DNA of 64,000 bases from the NCBI GenBank assembly GCA_029060305.1, contig JAIDUG010000004.1, positions 1 through 64,000 on the forward strand, in the 5' to 3' direction. Under the pieces are notes generated by a model. That model searched no databases and had not been told where the DNA came from. It worked only from the letters and a program-made list of their open reading frames with translations. The position numbers and the translations under genes were made by a program. Origin of the DNA: Ruminococcus sp. Its GTDB lineage: Bacteria; Bacillota; Clostridia; Oscillospirales; Ruminococcaceae. Below, piece after piece: positions 11,680-38,528 of the stretch (its first letter is position 1; every line of letters starts with the position of its first letter).

Positions 11680-14085
11680 ATGAAAACATTCAGCAAAATC
11701 ATTTCTGCTGTAAGCGTTCCGGTAATGATTGCCGGAATGGCAAGCGTTCCTGCAAGTGCGGAAATAACCCTCAAAGACAGCGGAATTTCCTATACGGAAA
11801 AAGTCGGCACTATTAACAATCCTGCTATGGGTTACACTACAACCTGCTGGGCTAACTGCAAACCAAACAATACTCCTACCTACAGCCCTACAGGAAGTCT
11901 TGTATTATTCTTTATAGATATAGGAGCGTTTTCTTGCGGTGTGAACGGTACTACAAATGACGATGGCACTTATATTGACGGCGTGGACTACGACCTTGAC
12001 GAGACTTTTTTCAGTGCGTGGCGTACTACACTTGAAAACTGCCGTAAAAACGGTTGTATGGTTGCACTGAGATTCCGTTACGATGCAAACGGCAAGGACA
12101 AACCTGAACCGGCAACTTTCGATAAGGTGCTTGACCACATACAGCAGATTAAAGACAGCGGTATTCTTGAGGATTACAAGGATATTATAGCTTACGTGGA
12201 AAGCGGTTTTGTAGGCAAGTGGGGCGAACAGCATGGCGGTAAATATACTTCAGTTGAGGACAAGGCAAAAGTCCTTGACGCTATGCTTGAATGTGTACCG
12301 TCTCCGATTCCTGTAACCGTGCGTACTCCTGACATCTTTGCAAAATGGGTAGGAATTGAACGTAAAGACCTTGCTGACTATGAATCTTCCGGAGAGGAAC
12401 TCCGTGTAGGTCTCTATAATGACGGATATATGGGAAGCGATTCAGATTTAGGCACTTTCGCAAACCGTCCCATTGAAATCGAATGGCTTGCAAAACAGAC
12501 TCTCACTTCATATTACGGCGGTGAATTTTCGGGCAATCTCGACTGGGCGAAAAAATATGACACTTATCTTCCTGAAAACGCCGTCCCCGAAATGTACAAA
12601 ACACACCTAAGTTATATAAACGGAAATATATTCCAGTTGTACAAAGACTATACTTTCGGCAAACAATATGACGTTGAAAACGTTGACAATTCAGCATATT
12701 ACGGTCAGAACGTTTTCCAGTTTATAAGAGACCATATAGGTTACAGATTTGTTCTCAGAAAATCGGAAATTTCGGAAACAGTCGAACAGGGCGGAACTCT
12801 TGACCTGCACTTCAATATTGAAAATACAGGTTTTGCAAATCCGATTCCCGAACAGAAAGTAGAAATAATTCTCGAACAGAACGGAAATTTTGTCCGTACT
12901 CCTGTAAACGTAAACTCAAACGAATGGTATTCATGTACAACGTCGGAAGAATTACTGGAGCTTAATCTTCCTGACAGTCTGCCCACTGGTGACTGGAATG
13001 CTTATCTGAAAATCACTTGCGGAAACAATACCGTTGAACAGTTGAATTTAAGGTCGGTGCAGTTTGCAAACGAAGATGTATGGAACGCCTCACTCGGTGC
13101 TAACTATATTGGAAGTTTCACGGTTACTGAAAGCGATACTCACAGCTCGGACAACGGATTCTATCAGACGGGAAATCAGCCTGACGAAGATTCCGGCAGA
13201 ATGTACAGCATAAACGGACACACTACTGCTGACGGTCTTATAACTTCCCCTTACGAATGGACGGAAGATATGTTGATAGCGGAAGACGGTGACAAAAAAC
13301 TCTATCTTACAGCAGATGATAAGTATATGTATATAATGGCAGATATTCCGAATAACGCTGAAAAACCTGTATGGAATATCCGTGTTGAAAACGAAGATAC
13401 AGAAACTTCATACTGGTACTACAAACAGTCGGCAGGCTGGATTTATTACAATCAGGGTAATCATGATGGTATAACGCTTACTGTAAACGGCAATATTGCA
13501 GAATTCAAAATAGCTTTCGGTGACGTTATGGGAGTAAATGCAGGTACTAAACTGAAATCTGTCCGTGTATTCGTACAGGACGAAGCTCACGAATGGGTAA
13601 ATTCAGGTGACTTAAAAAGCGGTGAATGTATTGTACCGTCGAACTTCCCTGTATACTCCGCACCATATGAAATAAGACTTTCCAAAGGAGACAGTTATAC
13701 AGTACGTCCTGAAGTTTCTGTATCAGATGCTAAGTATCAGTGGTATCTTGACGGAAAGGAAATCAAAGGTGCTGACGGTGCTGAATATCAGATTTCCAAT
13801 GCTGACGAAAATTCAACAGGTAAATATTCAGTAAAGGTTACTGCAAACGGCGTGACTTCTGAAATACCTGTACTTACAGTTTCAGAAATAGTGGGTGCTG
13901 ACGAAATAAAAGGCGACATTAATTCAGACGGTAAAGTAAACGTTGCAGACCTTGTACTCATGGAAAAATATATACTCGGTTCGCAGACTTTCACAGAAAA
14001 ACAATTCAGAGTTGCAGACCTCTCCGGAGACAGTGCGGTTGATTCTTTCGATATGGTTATGATTAGAAAAATTCTTGTAAAATAA
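11680..14085 (+). CDS. Secreted DUF4874/DUF4832 protein with dockerin
   Basis: Residues 1-27 are a classical signal peptide ending PASA. Residues about 40-330 match the DUF4874 fold (a TIM-barrel-like glycosidase-related domain; note the acidic YVESGFVGKWGEQH segment). Residues about 335-465 match DUF4832, a beta domain. A further beta region (about 475-655) looks like a carbohydrate-binding or sugar-enzyme ancillary domain, followed by an Ig-like module (about 665-735). The last 60 residues are a type I dockerin with two calcium-loop repeats: GDINSDGKVNVADLVLMEKY and ADLSGDSAVDSFDMVMIRKI. It should be exported and plugged into a cohesin scaffold. The enzymatic activity is unknown. Confidence 0.85.
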   Translation: MKTFSKIISAVSVPVMIAGMASVPASAEITLKDSGISYTEKVGTINNPAMGYTTTCWANCKPNNTPTYSPTGSLVLFFIDIGAFSCGVNGTTNDDGTYIDGVDYDLDETFFSAWRTTLENCRKNGCMVALRFRYDANGKDKPEPATFDKVLDHIQQIKDSGILEDYKDIIAYVESGFVGKWGEQHGGKYTSVEDKAKVLDAMLECVPSPIPVTVRTPDIFAKWVGIERKDLADYESSGEELRVGLYNDGYMGSDSDLGTFANRPIEIEWLAKQTLTSYYGGEFSGNLDWAKKYDTYLPENAVPEMYKTHLSYINGNIFQLYKDYTFGKQYDVENVDNSAYYGQNVFQFIRDHIGYRFVLRKSEISETVEQGGTLDLHFNIENTGFANPIPEQKVEIILEQNGNFVRTPVNVNSNEWYSCTTSEELLELNLPDSLPTGDWNAYLKITCGNNTVEQLNLRSVQFANEDVWNASLGANYIGSFTVTESDTHSSDNGFYQTGNQPDEDSGRMYSINGHTTADGLITSPYEWTEDMLIAEDGDKKLYLTADDKYMYIMADIPNNAEKPVWNIRVENEDTETSYWYYKQSAGWIYYNQGNHDGITLTVNGNIAEFKIAFGDVMGVNAGTKLKSVRVFVQDEAHEWVNSGDLKSGECIVPSNFPVYSAPYEIRLSKGDSYTVRPEVSVSDAKYQWYLDGKEIKGADGAEYQISNADENSTGKYSVKVTANGVTSEIPVLTVSEIVGADEIKGDINSDGKVNVADLVLMEKYILGSQTFTEKQFRVADLSGDSAVDSFDMVMIRKILVK

Positions 14086-18846: not shown

Positions 18847-22232
<3,386 letters not shown>

Positions 22233-22250: not shown

Positions 22251-22313
22251 AAAATTACAAAAGGGTGTAAGATACCCCGATATTTCGGAACATCATACAC
22301 CCCTTTGTGTATG
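22251..22313 (-). promoter_or_regulatory. Second ANTAR-type hairpin and terminator in amt leader
   Basis: Minus-strand RNA can form CATACAC-AAAGGG-GTGTATG (22313-22294), a perfect 7-base stem with a hexaloop having A1 and G4 and a C-G closing pair. The 3' arm is also the beginning of a 17-pair terminator with one mismatch: 22302-22286 pairs with 22279-22263, with a six-base loop (AAATAT), followed by TTTTGTAATTTTT. The two structures cannot coexist. Binding of an ANTAR protein to the hexaloop hairpin would allow read-through into amt. The stem energies were judged by eye only. Confidence 0.75.
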
Positions 22314-22331
22314 GAATTTAGCAAACAACAG

Positions 22332-22373
22332 AAAAAGAGGGCTAAAGACCTAACGTCCTCAGCCCCCTTGCTG
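22332..22373 (-). promoter_or_regulatory. First ANTAR-type hairpin and terminator in amt leader
   Basis: About 5 bases after the predicted RNA start, CAGC-AAGGGG-GCTG (22373-22360) forms a 4-base stem with an A1/G4 hexaloop closed by C-G. Its loop end and 3' arm belong to an 11-pair terminator: GGGCTGAGGAC (22365-22355), loop GTTAG, GTCTTTAGCCC (22349-22339), then TCTTTTT. Hairpin and terminator are mutually exclusive. The weak 4-base stem would need protein to win, as expected for an antitermination target. Confidence 0.75.
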
Positions 22374-22384
22374 TTTACAATGAC

Positions 22385-22413
22385 AGTATATACCCAAAAA
22401 ACATTTTTGTCAA
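22385..22413 (-). promoter_or_regulatory. Consensus promoter of amt-pyrG-glnN
   Basis: Minus strand TTGACA (22413-22408), 17 bases, TATACT (22390-22385). Start of transcription near 22378, only about 5 bases ahead of the first hexaloop hairpin. Confidence 0.85.
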
Positions 22414-22514
22414 TAGGTTTTCCTCACTTTCGGCAGATTAACCACTTTTTCATATATCATTCAGGAAACAAAAAGATGTTTTTAACAAAACTGAAATATT
22501 TCAGAAAATCCCTC

Positions 22515-22543
22515 TTGACTTTTTAATCTTTACGTGCTACTAT
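22515..22543 (+). promoter_or_regulatory. Predicted promoter of the gltB operon
   Basis: TTGACT (22515-22520), 17 bases, TACTAT (22538-22543). Start near 22550, about 3 bases ahead of the first hexaloop hairpin. It is divergent from the amt promoter; the roughly 100 bases between them (22414-22514) contain no feature I can support. Confidence 0.8.
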
Positions 22544-22552
22544 ATTATTCAA

Positions 22553-22605
22553 GAACAAGGACGTTCATTACAGGTTAACTATGCCTGTATGGACGTTCTT
22601 TTTTA
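22553..22605 (+). promoter_or_regulatory. ANTAR-type hairpin overlapping terminator, gltB leader
   Basis: GAAC-AAGGAC-GTTC (22553-22566) is a 4-base stem with an A1/G4 hexaloop closed by C-G. Loop and 3' arm are also the left arm of a 17-pair terminator with one bulge: 22557-22574 pairs with 22584-22600, with loop TTAACTATG, followed by a T-run to 22605. This is the same arrangement as the first element of the amt leader. By default the transcript should stop here; protein binding to the hexaloop would permit read-through. Confidence 0.75.
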
Positions 22606-22615
22606 TTTTTAGGTC

Positions 22616-22631
22616 GGTTCAATGGCGAACC
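22616..22631 (+). promoter_or_regulatory. Second ANTAR-type hairpin in gltB leader
   Basis: GGTTC-AATGGC-GAACC is a perfect 5-base stem with an A1/G4 hexaloop and C-G closing pair, 49 bases after the first (46 bases in the amt leader). No second terminator follows. Instead the loop contains an in-frame ATG (22622) and the stem lies just before a GGAAAGG ribosome site, so it might act on translation of gltB. Confidence 0.65.
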
Positions 22632-22654
22632 CTCCGGAAAGGCGTGAAACATTT

Positions 22655-25600
22655 ATGGATAACTTCAGAACAGAAGCTCCGTTCAGACAGCAGGGACTTT
22701 ACAACCCGAAATTTGAACACGACAACTGCGGTATCGGTGCGGTTGTGAACATAAAGGGTATAAAGTCAAGGAATGTTGTTGAGAACGCTCTTGAAATCGT
22801 GGAAAAACTTGAACACCGTGCAGGCAAGGACGCAGAGGGTAAAACCGGCGACGGTGTAGGAATACTTGTGCAGATACCTCATAAATTTTTTAAAAAAGAA
22901 ACTGAAACACTCGGTTTTGACATAGGTGGAGAGGGAGATTCCGGCGTGGGAATGTTCTTCTTTCCTCAGAACGAACTCAAACGCAATCAGGCTAAAAAAA
23001 TGTTTGAGATTATCGTGAAAAGAAACGGAATGGATTTTCTGGGCTGGAGAGAAGTCCCGTCTGTGCCGTCTGTTCTCGGACAGAAAGCCGTTGACAGTAT
23101 GCCATACATAATGCAGGGTTTTGTGAAACGTCCTGACGACTGTGCAAAGGGTCTTGATTTTGACAGGAAACTTTTTATTGCAAGACGTATCTTTGAACAG
23201 TCCAATGAAAATACTTACGTTGTATCGCTTTCAAGCCGTACAGTCGTATATAAAGGAATGTTCCTCGTTGACGAACTCCGCAAATTCTACAAAGACTTAC
23301 AGGACGATAATTTTATTTCCGCTATTGCAATGGTTCACTCACGTTTTTCAACAAACACAAATCCGAGCTGGCAGAAAGCACACCCTAACCGCTTTATCGT
23401 ACACAACGGCGAAATAAACACAATTACCGGCAATGCTGACAAAATGCTTGCACGTGAGGAAACTATGTCGTGTGAAGCACTCAAGGAAGATATGCACAAA
23501 ATTCTTCCTGCTATCAATATTGAGGGGTCGGATTCAGCAAGACTTGACAATGCACTTGAATTTATGGTGATGTCCGGTATGCCGTTACCGCTTGCTGTGA
23601 TGATTACGATTCCTGAGCCGTGGAAAAACAACCGTACTATTTCCAAAGAAAAATACGACTTCTATCAGTACTATGCAACAATGATGGAACCTTGGGACGG
23701 TCCTGCATCTATACTGTTTTCAGACGGCGACATCATGGGAGCTGTTCTCGACAGAAACGGTCTCCGTCCGTCAAGATACGTCATCACAAACGACGATTTC
23801 CTCATACTCTCATCTGAAACAGGTTGTATAGAAATTCCGCCGGAAAAAATCATAAAAAAAGACCGTCTCCGTCCTGGGAAGATGTTGCTTGCTGATACAA
23901 AACAGGGCAGACTGATTGACGACAATGAAATAAAAAGTTATTATGCTTCTCAGAAACCTTACGGCGAATGGCTTGATTCAAATCTTGTGAGACTTTACGA
24001 TTTGCATATTCCAAACAGAAACGTCCGTAAGTACACCCATGAAGAACTTGTAAAATTACAGAAAGCCTTCGGTTACTCATACGAAAATATCAGGACAAGT
24101 ATTCTTCCAATGGCTGAAAACGGTTCAGAGCCTATTGCTTCTATGGGTTCGGACGTTCCGCTCCCACCGCTTGACAGCGAAAATATTCCGCTTTTCAACT
24201 ATTTCAGACAGCTTTTCGCACAAGTTACAAACCCACCTTTTGACGCTATCCGTGAAGAAATAGTTACTGATACAAGCGTTTACATAGGCGAGGACGGAAA
24301 TATTCTTGAGGAAAAACCTGAAAACTGCCACGTACTCAAAATAGAAAATCCGATACTTACAAGTACAGATATGCTTAAAATAAAGAGTATGAAAGTAAAG
24401 GGACTTAAAACTGCTGTTATTCCGATTACCTACTACATGGGTACTCCGCTTGAAAGGGCTATCGAAAGACTTTTCATTGAAGCTGACAAGGCTTACCGTG
24501 ACGGTGCAAATATCCTTATACTTTCTGACAGGGACGTTGACGAATATCATACTCCCATACCGTCATTGCTTGCGGTATCTGCACTTCAACAGCACCTCGT
24601 CTCAACAAAGAAACGTACAGCGGTTGCAATGATTCTTGAAAGTGCTGAACCGTGTGAAGTACATCATTTCGCAACGCTCCTCGGATATGGTGCTTGTGCT
24701 GTAAATCCTTATCTCGCTCAGGAAACTATACGTGACCTTATTAATACAGGTATGCTTGACAAAGATTTCTATGCAGCAGAAACAGATTACAATAACGCTG
24801 TACTGCACGGAATTGTCAAAATAGCTTCAAAAATGGGTATCTCAACAATACAGTCGTATCAGGGTTCAAAACTCTTTGAGGCTGTCGGAATCTCGCACGA
24901 AGTAACTGAAAAATATTTCAAAGGTACTGTAAGCCGTATCGGCGGAATAACTCTCGACGATATAAGTCACCAGATTGAATCACGCCACAACTCCGCATTT
25001 GACCCTCTCGGACTTTCCGTCAACAACAGTATTGAAAGTGCAGGAAGTCACAAACTCAGAAGCGGAAAAAGCAATCACCTTTATACTCCGGAAACAATAC
25101 ATCTTTTACAGGAAGCCTCACGAACAGGTGACTACAATATCTACAAAAAGTATTCCGAATGTCTTAACCGTGAGGACAATAATCTCACGCTCAGAAGTCT
25201 GCTTGAATTTAATTTTGACGAAAACGGCGGTATTCCGATTGAAGAAGTCGAAAGCGTTGAGAGTATTTGCAGACGTTTCAAGACCGGTGCTATGTCATAC
25301 GGTTCTATATCTCAGGAAGCTCACGAATGTATGGCGGTTGCAATGAATCGCATAGGCGGTAAATCTAACTCCGGTGAGGGCGGTGAAAGTCCGGAACGTC
25401 TCAAATCGAATAAGTGTTCAGCTATAAAACAGGTAGCGTCGGGACGTTTCGGCGTAACAAGCGAATATCTTGTTTCCGCAAAAGAAATTCAGATAAAAAT
25501 GGCTCAGGGTGCTAAACCAGGTGAGGGCGGACATCTGCCGTCAGGAAAAGTATATCCGTGGATTGCAAAAACACGTCATTCAACTGCCGGTGTGGGACTT

Positions 25601-27190
25601 ATTTCACCACCTCCGCACCATGATATATATTCTATTGAAGACCTTGCACAACTTATATACGACCTCAAAAATGCTAACGAAAATGCACGTATTTCCGTTA
25701 AACTCGTTTCGGAAGCAGGTGTGGGTACAGTTTCAGCAGGCGTTGCAAAAGCAGGCGCACAAGTAATACTCATTTCAGGATATGACGGCGGTACAGGTGC
25801 AGCTCCGAAAAGTTCAATATACAATGCAGGACTTCCGTGGGAATTGGGACTTGCAGAGGCTCATCAGACACTTATTATGAACGGTCTGCGTTCACGTGTA
25901 GTAATAGAAACAGACGGCAAATTAATGACAGGTCGTGATGTACTTGTTGCTTGTCTGCTCGGTGCTGAGGAATTCGGATTTGCCACTGCTCCCCTTGTAA
26001 CTATGGGTTGCGTAATGATGCGTGTATGTAACCTTGATACCTGTCCTATGGGAATCGCTACTCAGAATCCCGAATTAAGAAAACGTTTTCAGGGCAAACC
26101 GGAGTATATTATCAATTTTATGCATTTCGTTGCACAGGAACTCCGTGAGTATATGGCAAAACTCGGTATACGCACTATTGACGAACTCGTCGGACGTACA
26201 GACCTGCTCCGCAAGAAAGACGTTCCGGAAAATCAGAAAATAGACTTTTCAAAAATCCTTTGCGGTATTGAAACAGACGGTAAACAGTCATTTAATCCTG
26301 CTGATATATACGATTTCAGACTTGCAGAAACAGTTGACAAAAAAGTCCTTATGAAAAAACTCGGCTCTGCATTGAAGAACAAAACCAAAAAAACAATTGA
26401 TATTGACATCGTAAATACCGATCGTGCATTAGGTACTCTTTTCGGTGCTGAAATAACACGCCGTTATGGTGACAACGTTCTTGAAGATGATACTTTCACT
26501 GTAAGATGTCACGGAAGTGGCGGACAAAGTTTCGGTGCATTCATTCCGAAAGGTCTCACACTTGAACTTCACGGAGACAGTAACGACTATTTCGGAAAAG
26601 GTCTCTCAGGCGGTAAACTTGTACTCTGTCCACCGGAAAAATCAGGTTTCAGGGCTGAGGAAAATATTATTGTCGGGAACGTTGCACTCTATGGTGCTAC
26701 CTCAGGAAAAGCGTTCATTAACGGTATTGCCGGAGAGCGTTTCTGTGTAAGAAATTCAGGTGCTGTTGCAGTCTGTGAGGGTACAGGCGACCACGCCTGT
26801 GAATATATGACCGGCGGTCGTGCTGTAATTCTCGGCAAAACAGGAAAAAATTTCGCTGCCGGAATGTCAGGCGGTATCGCTTACGTCCTCGACGAAAACA
26901 GAGACTTATATATGAATCTGAACAAGTCCCTTGTATCACTTGAGGGTGTTACTGAAAAGTACGATATTATCGAACTCAGAAGTATTATTGAAGAACACGC
27001 AAACGCTACGGGTTCTGAAAAAGCAAAACGCATACTTGCGGACTTTGACAAATATATCCCGAATTTCAAAAAGATTATTCCGCACGATTACGCTAAAATC
27101 AAAAGTGCTGTCGTAACTCTTGAGGAAAAGGGTATGAACAGCGAACAGGCTGAAATTGAAGCGTTCTATCTTATTACTAAGGAGGCATAA
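22655..27190 (+). CDS. gltB: Glutamate synthase large subunit
   Basis: Converts glutamine plus 2-oxoglutarate to two glutamates. I prefer ATG 22655 (MDNFRTEAPF), which leaves a 24-residue propeptide before the catalytic Cys of HDNCGIG; ATG 22622 would add 11 residues. From this start (1511 aa): class II amidotransferase (about 25-420), central domain (about 465-740), FMN/synthase domain (about 800-1180) with the GEGGESPERLKS and QGAKPGEGGHLPSGK segments and the 3Fe-4S Cys (VCNLDTCPMGIATQ), and the GXGXG beta-helix domain (about 1250-1450). First gene of a six-gene operon. Confidence 0.96.
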   Translation: MDNFRTEAPFRQQGLYNPKFEHDNCGIGAVVNIKGIKSRNVVENALEIVEKLEHRAGKDAEGKTGDGVGILVQIPHKFFKKETETLGFDIGGEGDSGVGMFFFPQNELKRNQAKKMFEIIVKRNGMDFLGWREVPSVPSVLGQKAVDSMPYIMQGFVKRPDDCAKGLDFDRKLFIARRIFEQSNENTYVVSLSSRTVVYKGMFLVDELRKFYKDLQDDNFISAIAMVHSRFSTNTNPSWQKAHPNRFIVHNGEINTITGNADKMLAREETMSCEALKEDMHKILPAINIEGSDSARLDNALEFMVMSGMPLPLAVMITIPEPWKNNRTISKEKYDFYQYYATMMEPWDGPASILFSDGDIMGAVLDRNGLRPSRYVITNDDFLILSSETGCIEIPPEKIIKKDRLRPGKMLLADTKQGRLIDDNEIKSYYASQKPYGEWLDSNLVRLYDLHIPNRNVRKYTHEELVKLQKAFGYSYENIRTSILPMAENGSEPIASMGSDVPLPPLDSENIPLFNYFRQLFAQVTNPPFDAIREEIVTDTSVYIGEDGNILEEKPENCHVLKIENPILTSTDMLKIKSMKVKGLKTAVIPITYYMGTPLERAIERLFIEADKAYRDGANILILSDRDVDEYHTPIPSLLAVSALQQHLVSTKKRTAVAMILESAEPCEVHHFATLLGYGACAVNPYLAQETIRDLINTGMLDKDFYAAETDYNNAVLHGIVKIASKMGISTIQSYQGSKLFEAVGISHEVTEKYFKGTVSRIGGITLDDISHQIESRHNSAFDPLGLSVNNSIESAGSHKLRSGKSNHLYTPETIHLLQEASRTGDYNIYKKYSECLNREDNNLTLRSLLEFNFDENGGIPIEEVESVESICRRFKTGAMSYGSISQEAHECMAVAMNRIGGKSNSGEGGESPERLKSNKCSAIKQVASGRFGVTSEYLVSAKEIQIKMAQGAKPGEGGHLPSGKVYPWIAKTRHSTAGVGLISPPPHHDIYSIEDLAQLIYDLKNANENARISVKLVSEAGVGTVSAGVAKAGAQVILISGYDGGTGAAPKSSIYNAGLPWELGLAEAHQTLIMNGLRSRVVIETDGKLMTGRDVLVACLLGAEEFGFATAPLVTMGCVMMRVCNLDTCPMGIATQNPELRKRFQGKPEYIINFMHFVAQELREYMAKLGIRTIDELVGRTDLLRKKDVPENQKIDFSKILCGIETDGKQSFNPADIYDFRLAETVDKKVLMKKLGSALKNKTKKTIDIDIVNTDRALGTLFGAEITRRYGDNVLEDDTFTVRCHGSGGQSFGAFIPKGLTLELHGDSNDYFGKGLSGGKLVLCPPEKSGFRAEENIIVGNVALYGATSGKAFINGIAGERFCVRNSGAVAVCEGTGDHACEYMTGGRAVILGKTGKNFAAGMSGGIAYVLDENRDLYMNLNKSLVSLEGVTEKYDIIELRSIIEEHANATGSEKAKRILADFDKYIPNFKKIIPHDYAKIKSAVVTLEEKGMNSEQAEIEAFYLITKEA

Positions 27191-28691: not shown

Positions 28692-29969
28692 ATGGTTTAC
28701 ACAAAGAACGAAATTCTTCAATATATTGAGGAAAACGACGTAAAATTCGTAAAGCTCACTTTCTGCGACATAAACGGCAAACTTAAAAATATATCTGTTC
28801 TTTCTTCTGAACTCTCCGCCGTATTTGAACACGGTACAAGAATTACTGCAAAGAAGATTCAGGGATTTTCGACAGCGGACGGAAAAGACTTGTTTCTGTT
28901 TCCCGACCCTAATACCATGACCGTACTTCCGTGGAGACCTCAGCAGGGGCGTGTTATCAGAATGTTCTGTTATATAAAGTACGCTGACGGTACGAATTTC
29001 GAGGGGGACGGAAGATATTTTCTGAAAAATGCCGTCAAGACTGCACTTTCAAAAGGTTACTGTTTCCGTTTCGGAACGTCATGCGAGTTCTGCATTTTCA
29101 GAACAGACGAAAACGGTATTCCTACTAAAGTCCCCCACGATTACGCCGGTTACTGCGATATAGCCCCCGACGATAAAGGCGAAAATATCCGTCGTGATGT
29201 ATGTCTCACACTTGAACAAATGGGCATACACCCAATATCTTCACGTCATGAAAGCGGTAACGGTCAGCACGAAATAGACTTCAATCCGGCATCTGCACTC
29301 AAATCAGCCGATACTTTTCTGAGTTTCAAGTCTGCTGTAAAGTCCGTTGCAAGACAGCACGGTGTACACGCAAGTTTTATGCCAAAACCTTTACGAAACG
29401 ACTGCGGAAACGGTATGCATATAAGTTTCAGCATATTCAGGGACAGTGAATCATTCAGCAGTGGTATTCCCGAAAACAATTCCCTGCTTCACGAAAACGT
29501 TGCTTCAGGTATTATGAAACATATCCGTGAATTTACGATTTTCACAAATTCCACCGTCAACTCATACAGCCGTCTCGGAGAGTTTTCCGCACCACGCAAC
29601 ATAGTATGGTCTAAAAATGAAAATGACCAGTTAATCAGAATGGACGACAGTGAATCTCCTGTTGTTCTGAGAGTTGCCGACTGTGCGTGCAATCCCTATT
29701 ACGTGTTCGGACTCATTATATATTCTGCCCTTGACGGTATCGAAAATGACCTCAGACTTCCTGCTGAGAATTACTGTTCCGGCGAAAAGCTTCCCTCTGA
29801 TATTTCGGAAGCCATAAAACTTTCAGAAAACTCAGAATTTCTGAAAAAGTATATTCCTGAAAAAATTCTTTCAACTATACTTGCTGAACGCCGTGCGGAA
29901 TGGAAAGAATATTCATCAGCATATGACAAGGAAGCGTTTGAAGATAAAAAATATTTCTACAGTCTGTAA
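28692..29969 (+). CDS. Degenerate GlnA-like protein (probable pseudo-GS)
   Basis: A 425-residue protein with the type I glutamine synthetase fold. It keeps one metal site (E132, E187, E194), the His of GNGMH (H243), R294, R316 and R327. Aligned by eye to Salmonella GS, it has lost metal ligands E129 (S130) and E357 (V325), the flap Glu E327 (S299, with a one-residue deletion), and the nucleotide/substrate residues R337, R339 and R355 (N309, N311, P323). Normal catalysis looks unlikely. It sits 13 bases after gltD and 13 before the ANTAR regulator, suggesting a sensing or regulatory job. A gamma-glutamyl ligase with a different substrate is the alternative. Confidence 0.8.
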   Translation: MVYTKNEILQYIEENDVKFVKLTFCDINGKLKNISVLSSELSAVFEHGTRITAKKIQGFSTADGKDLFLFPDPNTMTVLPWRPQQGRVIRMFCYIKYADGTNFEGDGRYFLKNAVKTALSKGYCFRFGTSCEFCIFRTDENGIPTKVPHDYAGYCDIAPDDKGENIRRDVCLTLEQMGIHPISSRHESGNGQHEIDFNPASALKSADTFLSFKSAVKSVARQHGVHASFMPKPLRNDCGNGMHISFSIFRDSESFSSGIPENNSLLHENVASGIMKHIREFTIFTNSTVNSYSRLGEFSAPRNIVWSKNENDQLIRMDDSESPVVLRVADCACNPYYVFGLIIYSALDGIENDLRLPAENYCSGEKLPSDISEAIKLSENSEFLKKYIPEKILSTILAERRAEWKEYSSAYDKEAFEDKKYFYSL

Positions 29970-29982
29970 CGGGGGTCTGCTT

Positions 29983-30564
29983 TTGGAAAACGTTATTATA
30001 ATTTCAAGCAGTAAAAGTGCAGGCGATACGCTGTCAAACTTTATACGTGAAGATTTCCGCTGTAATGTAAGAAACGCTGAATCCGCACAGATTGCCAAAG
30101 ATATTTTCAATACAAATGCACTTTGTGACCTTGCTATGATATACTCACCACTGTCAGACGACAGCGGTCTTTCACTTGCCGAATATATTGTTGAAAATAC
30201 TGCTTCTAACTGTATTCTGATTTCAAAATCCGAAAATATCGAAAAATTCCGTGAACGTGCCGAAAATATCGGTATTATCACTATCGGCAGACCATTCAAT
30301 AAAAGTTTCCTGTATCAGACGGTCAAGACAATTGAAATAGCTATGAACCGTTCATACAAGCTGTATGAGGAAACAGTGAGACTTGAACGGAAAATCGACG
30401 AAATACGCACCATTGACAAAGCAAAATTTATGCTTATGGAATACAGGCATATGACAGAAAACGAGGCTCACACTTATCTTGAACAGTATGCTATGAACAG
30501 ACGAAAGAAAAAAGTTATATCAGCATCTGAGATAATTGATAAAATCAATGAACAATATTTATAA
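29983..30564 (+). CDS. ANTAR-domain RNA-binding antitermination regulator
   Basis: The start is taken as TTG 29983 (MENVIIISSSKSAG) behind GGGGG, just after the GS-like gene; earlier in-frame codons lie inside that gene. Residues 1-115 are a receiver-like fold, but the phosphoacceptor Asp position reads Tyr (DLAMIYSPLSDD), so phosphorylation control is unlikely. Residues about 130-193 are an ANTAR domain (ERKIDEIRTIDKAKFMLMEY, then MTENEAHTYLEQYAMNRRKK). ANTAR proteins bind RNA hexaloop hairpins and prevent termination. Two leaders with such hairpins flank this block, making it the obvious binder. Confidence 0.88.
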   Translation: MENVIIISSSKSAGDTLSNFIREDFRCNVRNAESAQIAKDIFNTNALCDLAMIYSPLSDDSGLSLAEYIVENTASNCILISKSENIEKFRERAENIGIITIGRPFNKSFLYQTVKTIEIAMNRSYKLYEETVRLERKIDEIRTIDKAKFMLMEYRHMTENEAHTYLEQYAMNRRKKKVISASEIIDKINEQYL

Positions 30565-38145: not shown

Positions 38146-38179
38146 AAAAAAAGCTCCGTACAGAATACGGAGTTTTTTT
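38146..38179. terminator. Bidirectional terminator (83-aa gene and rnpB)
   Basis: CTCCGTA / TACGGAG stem (38154-38172) with seven T on the right and an A-run on the left. Confidence 0.85.
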
Positions 38180-38181
38180 GT

Positions 38182-38528
38182 GTGACCAGACCGATAAGCC
38201 GGGTTCTGTCGAGTACAGCAATTTATCTAGACCTGTCGTCACCGACAGGCTCAAGCCGTCATAATTTCAGTATCCGTCGGGCAGACGTTAATGATACGAA
38301 ATTCCAAATAGACGTTGCATCAGGTAAAGTTTGCATAGCAGTACAGTTACCTGTACTCTGGTACGCTCTTACCGCACCTTTCCACCATCACCTCACGAAT
38401 GAGGCAGTTTATTTCTGTTGCACTATTTCGGGAGTCGCCTCCGGCTGTCGTTAGCAGTTACCCTGCCCTGTGATGCCCGGACTTTCCTCATAAACTAAAA
38501 CGTTTCCGCTGCTGTATAGCCTGCTCAC
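38182..38528 (-). ncRNA. rnpB: RNase P RNA, bacterial class A
   Basis: The catalytic RNA that trims the 5' leader from pre-tRNAs. On the minus strand the conserved 5' core GAGGAAAGTCCGGGC (about 38488-38474) and the 3' core ACAGAACCCGGCTTAT (about 38210-38195) are present, together with the CR segments around GGTAACTGCTAACG and GGTGGAAAGGTGCGG. The length of about 347 bases fits. The 5' end is set 7 bases after its promoter, the 3' end at the pairing partner of the P1 stem just before the terminator. Confidence 0.95.

Follow-up and report, generated by a model that had tools for sequence, protein, structure and literature searches.

Introduction

Antitermination by ANTAR proteins has been described for EutV, NasR and AmiR, whose target RNA carries two hexaloop hairpins (Ramesh et al. 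2012, PMC3369931; Walshe et al. 2022, PMC8934654). In the published class the two hairpins are adjacent, with a linker of 5-12 nt in the eut genes of E. faecalis, and the second alone overlaps the terminator. Ramesh et al. took the target to be a dual hairpin and based their search on that definition (PMC3369931); Walshe et al. identified a single hexaloop as the minimal binding motif and left the role of single ones open (PMC8934654). Both hairpins and the short linker are required in E. faecalis: induction fell drastically with a 14-nt linker, and no antitermination was seen with a 20-nt extension (PMC3369931, PMC8934654). According to the model proposed for EutV, the hexaloops are contacted successively (PMC8934654). 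Published work already describes ANTAR control over nitrogen genes as well as over clostridial GS/GOGAT genes (PMC3369931, PMC6316151).

An ANTAR protein of Clostridium saccharobutylicum, NitR, was reportedly studied by Stutz et al. in 2007. NitR is said to induce GS/GOGAT by antitermination on nitrogen limitation (PMC6316151). ANTAR RNAs of actinobacteria overlap ribosome-binding sites and are dual hairpins with linkers of 2-25 nt (PMC8164766).

We followed up a sequence-only reading of a 64,000-nucleotide stretch of Ruminococcus DNA (the window), in which the divergent leaders of amt and gltB had been proposed to share a two-hairpin, ANTAR-type antitermination design. In our judgment, both divergent operons quite probably start with an antiterminator built on a single hexaloop (AANGNN), with an ANTAR protein gripping the first hairpin, P1.

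The amt-gltB Locus and Its Hexaloop Hairpins

amt (minus strand) and gltB (plus strand) are transcribed divergently across an intergenic gap of 422 bases, and gltB is followed by gltD, a glutamine synthetase (GS)-like gene, the ANTAR gene, purF and asnB (gltD, purF and asnB were named by eye).

20442..22232, minus strand: amt, ammonium transporter with C-terminal P-II domain (Pfam PF00909 and PF00543; ATG start chosen by eye)
22360..22373, minus strand: amt P1 hairpin, CAGC[AAGGGG]GCTG, loop 22369-22364
22385..22413, minus strand: amt promoter, TTGACA-17-TATACT (consensus scan)
22515..22543, plus strand: gltB promoter, TTGACT-17-TACTAT (consensus scan; position relative to the hexaloop similar in same-genus leaders)
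22553..22566, plus strand: gltB P1 hairpin, GAAC[AAGGAC]GTTC, an ANTAR-type hexaloop at the RNA 5' end, loop 22557-22562
22636..22642, plus strand: gltB ribosome-binding site, GGAAAGG (sequence, by eye; alike in most relatives)
22655..27190, plus strand: gltB, glutamate synthase large subunit (Pfam; relatives)

The transporter at 20442-22232 is fused to the P-II domain at its C-terminus. Elsewhere in the window, an RNase P RNA of bacterial class A lies at 38179-38527 on the minus strand, and 11680-14085 encodes a probably secreted protein with a dockerin-like C-terminus (by eye).

The four hexaloop hairpins named earlier, a P1 and a second hairpin (P2) in each leader, are all present. Each has a six-base loop with A1, A2 and G4, and each stem has 4 to 7 pairs and closes with C-G, which agrees with the A1/G4 loops, the stems of at least 3 pairs and the conserved C-G closing of the dual-hexaloop class. 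Hairpins of this kind (A1, G4, C-G closing, at least 4 pairs) number 31 over the 64 kb and both strands, 4 of them within these 431 bp; 500 dinucleotide shuffles gave a mean of 0.108 hairpins and a maximum of 2, so that none gave four. P1 starts 9 nt (gltB) or 11 nt (amt) past the -10 box, about 2-4 nt from the expected RNA start in both leaders. Because P1 lies within a few bases of that start, there is no room for a hexaloop upstream.

Conservation of P1 in the Genus

Orthologous leaders were taken from related genomes; the promoter was placed by its own score, and the loop was then sought after the promoter. Leaders cut by contig ends (L034, L060, L086, L090) and lower-ranked relatives without loci were left out. 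The P1 motif C-A-A-N-G-N-N-G was found in 24 of 25 gltB leaders of the genus, with A1 10-13 nt past the -10 box, and in all 22 amt leaders with a readable promoter, with A1 exactly 15 nt past that box; the 23rd amt leader has the loop, and its bases are masked at the expected promoter. Only the gltB leader of G016 lacks it; this genome has no close relative of the ANTAR protein encoded in this block. P1 therefore keeps its A1/G4 hexaloop in homologous leaders, the point on which the sequence-only reading had staked its proposal beforehand.

Covariation was assessed on an alignment (A1) of 40 of the 50 extracted P1-type modules, ten similar ones being left out; two gltB modules with stem GGAC (G002, G026) and the amt P2 modules are not part of it, and most modules were selected with patterns in which loop letters and inner stem are fixed. 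Pairing holds in 96.9% of P1 stem cells, and the covariation of the stem (0.570 vs 0.245, with 0/500 shuffles as high) largely reflects the contrast between gltB and amt leaders. Double-sided changes of P1 pairs did not exceed those in shuffles (67/500 as high), nor did further pair types (218/500). The closing C-G is invariant in the aligned rows, which were mostly selected by patterns fixing that very pair. In the terminator, 12 of 15 pairs show changes on both sides. G occupies loop position 4 in 40/40 modules, opposite a terminator partner that is C in 23 of them and U in 17. The left arm of the terminator is thus kept while its partners drift, as though the arm might be read by something else. 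A single hairpin at the very 5' end of the RNA forms the conserved core, and its loop and 3' arm double as the left arm of the terminator.

An ordinary constitutive terminator, or another kind of attenuation (leader peptide, riboswitch), would account for the loop as a mere terminator arm, and the loop and 3' arm are indeed paired in the terminator. We consider this very improbable: the left arm is kept as its partners drift, the upstream half of P1 falls outside the aligned terminator helix and yet is paired at the frequency given above, and the modules co-occur with ANTAR proteins (see below). No Rfam family reached the gathering score in the window leaders, where two weak hits fell far below it; a known riboswitch or leader was rejected for both leaders on this ground.

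Terminators and Folding

R1 denotes a covariance model of the P1-terminator module; both window sequences are part of it, and the E values below are to be read accordingly.

22552..22609, plus strand: gltB P1-terminator module including the U-tract (R1 match 22552-22603, E 2.6e-8, window sequence in the model; folding; covariation)
22325..22374, minus strand: amt P1-terminator module including the U-tract (R1 match 22332-22374, E 1.6e-7, window sequence in the model; terminator scan; folding)
22257..22308, minus strand: amt terminator-like stem 2, overlapping P2, U-tract interrupted (folding of 21 leaders; short stem only in a simple scan)

In both leaders the left arm of the terminator consists of the loop and 3' arm of P1, in line with the earlier claim that the first hairpin overlaps it. 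This differs from the dual-hexaloop class, in which the second hairpin overlaps the terminator and the first does not; here P1 itself overlaps terminator 1. Both leaders were folded with and without a P1 constraint, as had been suggested. Without constraint the terminator formed with probability 1.0 in 24/24 gltB and 23/23 amt leaders; forcing P1 made the fold less stable at equilibrium, by about 5-15 kcal/mol in the 24 gltB leaders and 3-18 kcal/mol in the 23 amt leaders. Since a forced P1 loses to the terminator at equilibrium, its capture must be kinetic, during RNA synthesis.

The gltB terminator is absent from a simple terminator scan and scored 25 against a cut-off of 26 in a hairpin scan; it rests on folding and covariation. 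The simple scan listed amt terminator 1, and amt terminator 2 appeared there only as a short weak stem. Stem 2 is strong when folded, and its U-tract is interrupted (window tail TTTTGTAATTTTT), with fewer T in many relatives. The idea that amt has one terminator per hairpin is accordingly less sure for P2. Sequestration of the ribosome-binding site by the freed U-tract was considered and rejected: it occurs in some gltB folds, such as L051, where forcing P1 lets the freed right arm and U-tract pair with the gltB ribosome-binding site, and is inconsistent over the 24 leaders.

The ANTAR Protein and Its Glutamine Synthetase-like Neighbor

28692..29969, plus strand: glutamine synthetase-like gene, several catalytic positions changed, 13 nt upstream of the ANTAR gene
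29983..30564, plus strand: ANTAR protein with pseudo-receiver, candidate antiterminator

An ANTAR gene is present in the same block, as had been stated. The only Pfam match of its product above cut-off is PF03861 (54 bits vs a cut-off of 27.3), GSHPx staying below. The predicted fold has a mean pLDDT of 94.4, and its best structural match is 6ww6, EutV bound to RNA, followed by free EutV, Rv1626 and AmiR. The protein thus has the ANTAR domain and EutV-like fold of ANTAR response regulators, and lacks their phosphorylatable Asp, which is Tyr, Asn or His in 26/26 aligned sequences. As the phospho-acceptor is absent, kinase control is unlikely, judging by sequence. The RNA contacts of EutV were taken from PMC8934654 and transferred by alignment with an inferred residue offset of two: E160, K149, M172 and R175 are invariant in the 26 sequences, R177 has become Lys, Y164 an invariant His and R168 Glu, R142 is often Gln or Lys, and K143 is lost. 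The block protein therefore appears to keep most EutV contacts, and it is predicted to bind RNA. Its closest counterparts on named contigs are mostly from R. flavefaciens and Ruminococcus metagenome-assembled genomes (MAGs), which places the window in the R. flavefaciens group. A second ANTAR protein is encoded in the same genome (L170:4241-4789, contig C56).

This second ANTAR gene, too, is paired with a GS-like gene 13 nt away (L170:2938-4789), and there was no R1 match on contig C56. Among relatives, 21/21 further loci of more distant ANTAR genes have a GS homologue immediately before the ANTAR gene; at the class level, GS was found within about 2.3 kb upstream of ANTAR in 19/20 genomes with an R1 match and in 15/20 without. 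The GS-like protein of the window differs from solved enzymes at three positions, which we take to be the Glu of the first metal site, the Glu of the flap and the NRS-motif Arg. All 25 readable copies of the 26 block-type GS of the genus have a changed flap Glu (the copy of L017 is only partly readable). In 22 other copies it is kept in two (L174, L178), changed in 19 and unread by the pattern in one. These comparisons use the flap and metal-site positions; the RER column is misassigned for L009, L171 and L175, and the NRS column is empty. An apparent GS-ANTAR fusion in G044 (a 745-aa open frame) proved to consist of two neighboring genes.

The glutamine synthetase of Bacillus is itself a binding partner of a nitrogen regulator (PMC6316151), and a signal passing from GS to ANTAR is therefore plausible.

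Distribution of the Module in Other Genomes

In its own genome, R1 matched only the two P1 modules at the E values listed above. The next matches (E 0.69 and 1.1, on contig C11) were judged to be chance, lying in protein-coding stretches by eye and without leader context. Searches of more than 40 genomes ran with stricter filters, at which weak matches are lost. R1 matched at E 0.01 in 51 of the 60 genomes searched as relatives, the own genome included. The divergent module pair was present in 20 of 22 named contigs searched (of 26), including Ruminococcus flavefaciens FD-1 (L101), several of these contigs being from the same genomes as in the relatives set; the other two end before the region. 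Among the relatives, 28 matches in 20 regions were inspected; apart from the gltB and amt leaders treated above, modules stand before asnB, a GS-ANTAR operon and GSIII, as well as a glutamate synthase-type amidotransferase, Amt, P-II, AsnA and an ornithine cyclodeaminase-family gene (some by eye).

At the class level, 38 of 196 genomes had an R1 match at 1e-4 and 99 had an ANTAR domain. The domain was found in 35/38 genomes with a match vs 64/158 without (Fisher p 3e-9, kinship ignored), and in 15 of those 35 genomes, the own included, the match lies at most 20 kb from an ANTAR gene. The remaining 3/38 showed no ANTAR match; one of them, G138, has an R1 match without a hexaloop (L207). Downstream reading frames, present at 26 of the 28 loci inspected from 46 listed places, comprised 9 GSIII, 6 AsnA, 2 Amt, 1 P-II and 8 others or unknown. 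Ammonium-assimilation genes thus make up 18/26. The assignment of the design to nitrogen operons is supported.

The layout was checked in 56 matches, 28 from the class level and 28 from relatives (one of the latter, G030 amt, is a training sequence). A hexaloop was found in 48; in 39 of these a promoter is present, with 11-26 nt between the end of its -10 box and A1. The eight without one were rejected (L151, L152, L155, L157, L165 twice, L207, L216), and two with a loop and no promoter (L161 and the first L166 match) are probably chance. An upstream hexaloop at canonical spacing accompanied 1/48 modules, that before amt in L203 (G062). Since L203 was found, the published layout exists and can be told apart by the same scan; the ANTAR gene of this genome (L220) has no GS gene within 2.2 kb upstream. 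The departure from the published layout that had been noted for the window is supported.

Outside the 56-match set, the gltB leader of G048 (L057) has two close hexaloops. The ANTAR gene of G048 (L239) has a GS gene upstream despite these close hexaloops, so there is no strict link between leader layout and GS pairing. In L164 there may be a second loop 15 nt downstream (AGAGAT, three pairs). Modules in other families mostly consist of one hexaloop with a terminator and are sometimes arranged in tandem. Three precede amt in G042 (L084), and at least three occur in G117 (L212). Divergent module pairs were also seen at L156, L160, L163, L167 and L168, between GSIII, AsnA or amt and a glutamate synthase-type amidotransferase gene; four of these five loci belong to other families (some genes named by eye).

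The Second Hairpin

22294..22313, minus strand: amt P2 hairpin, CATACAC[AAAGGG]GTGTATG, loop 22306-22301 (in 21/23 same-genus amt leaders)
22616..22631, plus strand: gltB P2 hairpin, GGTTC[AATGGC]GAACC, loop 22621-22626 (covariation over 20 leaders)

P2 follows P1 after 46 nt (amt) or 49 nt (gltB), as had been correctly counted, with a terminator in between, where the E. faecalis eut genes have 5-12 nt. The gltB P2 is a genuine, covarying hexaloop hairpin. In an alignment (A3) of 20 distinct sequences from 21 gltB P2 segments, its covariation was 0.703 vs 0.199 in shuffles, with 0/500 as high; double changes occur in 9/10 pairs, a count also reached by 35/500 shuffles. The stem varies freely, and the loop and closing pair are kept. 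No terminator overlapping the gltB P2 was found; it stands directly before the ribosome-binding site, and its end is close to that site in most leaders. The amt P2 of G019 has G at loop position 1. A similar P2 was seen by eye in one asnB leader (L150).

The two hairpins had been read as one antiterminator, which would require a single ANTAR dimer to bind P1 and P2 across 46-49 nt. The reality of the gltB P2 speaks for this, as does the rather constant distance between the loops (58-72 nt across 21 gltB leaders; 59-68 nt for 19/21 amt leaders), which could mean joint action. The close hexaloops of G048 count against our own reading. In gltB the variation in total distance is smaller than that of its components added together; in amt this is so only without two long leaders. 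The spacings give a rank correlation of -0.13 in gltB and -0.22 in amt (n 21 for each, neither significant); leaving out the two long leaders brings the amt value to -0.52 (n 19, p 0.02). Misplacement of the U-tract alone would push these values negative, and we rest nothing on them. However, P2 is transcribed only past the U-tract of the P1 terminator, it is missing from 3/24 gltB leaders (G027, G028, G029) and 2/23 amt leaders (G016, G030) in which P1 and its terminator are retained, and a single hexaloop is usual in other families. For these reasons the two-hairpin claim is not supported. Long linkers moreover fail in E. faecalis in the experiments described in the Introduction, and we regard joint binding as improbable.

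The losses also bear on which ANTAR protein acts. The protein encoded on contig C56, alone or together with the block protein, could act on the leaders instead. It likewise has an ANTAR domain, and G016 and G030 have no close relative of the block protein and yet keep amt P1 and its terminator. Exactly these two genomes lack the amt P2, the block ANTAR gene appears, from gene order, to lie in the operon that the gltB leader starts, and elsewhere the module is often near an ANTAR gene, so that we think the substitution unlikely, if by no means negligible. The correlation of P2 with the block protein is not clean: G022 (64% complete) has an amt P2, and no close block protein was found there.

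P2 may instead serve after the decision at P1: P1 alone would settle terminator 1, and the protein would then move to P2 and guard amt stem 2 or gltB translation. Successive contact with hexaloops is the published EutV model. A strong stem is overlapped by the amt P2, the gltB P2 ends near the ribosome-binding site in most leaders, and in some gltB leaders a forced P1 makes that site less accessible. The interrupted U-tract of amt stem 2 and the inconsistent ribosome-site pairing over the 24 folded gltB leaders weigh the other way, and we consider such a transfer possible while leaning against it.

Possible Mechanism and Implications

From the sequence, the conserved structure and the co-occurrence with ANTAR proteins we infer a course of binding, antitermination, signaling and P2 action in which P1 decides. 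Without protein, the terminator would form and transcription would end after about 50 nt. When nitrogen is short, an ANTAR protein, most likely that encoded at 29983-30564, would grip the P1 loop as it leaves the polymerase; P1 so gripped would stay folded and block the terminator. One hexaloop per terminator should be enough, because nothing lies upstream of P1 and P2 is unmade when termination is decided. P2, usual in the genus about 60 nt further on, would face the weaker terminator-like stem 2 in amt, and in gltB, before the ribosome-binding site, it could retain the protein, hand it on or influence translation.

More broadly, antitermination of this kind may be class-wide in Clostridia, with one 5'-terminal hexaloop as the whole target, the ANTAR protein switched by the GS homologue upstream rather than by phosphorylation, and this homologue being a catalytically degenerate glutamine sensor in some lineages, including this genus. 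The generalization is tentative, and we think it somewhat more apt to fail than to hold.

The published rule, derived from E. faecalis, is two adjacent hexaloops, and searches built on it are expected to miss sites such as these. One hexaloop at the 5' end seems to be in use before ammonium-assimilation genes of many Clostridia. The modules are minimal, portable test objects for asking why EutV needs two loops; they also point to a probable nitrogen-control regulon in fiber-degrading gut ruminococci, with glutamine synthetase homologues as a possible signal input.

Comparison with Known ANTAR Systems

The locus shares with NitR an ANTAR gene beside GS/GOGAT genes (in the window, gltB-gltD-GS-like-ANTAR), which is the arrangement we take the NitR cluster to have. 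Neither an RNA target of NitR nor a single 5'-terminal hexaloop is described in the accessible text of PMC6316151. Terminators with a single 5'-terminal hexaloop were likewise the subject of no report that we found in the open literature.

The gltB P2 resembles the actinobacterial ANTAR RNAs in being a hexaloop near a ribosome-binding site; unlike them (PMC8164766), it stands alone and ends before the site.

With the target RNA of EutV, NasR and AmiR, the leaders have in common the six-base A1/G4 loops, the conserved closing pair and the mutual exclusion of a loop hairpin and an intrinsic terminator, and the regulated genes are again nitrogen genes, including ammonium transporters and glutamate synthase. 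Here, unlike in that class, the sole hairpin before the terminator is 5'-terminal and itself overlaps the terminator, and P2, where present, lies beyond it.
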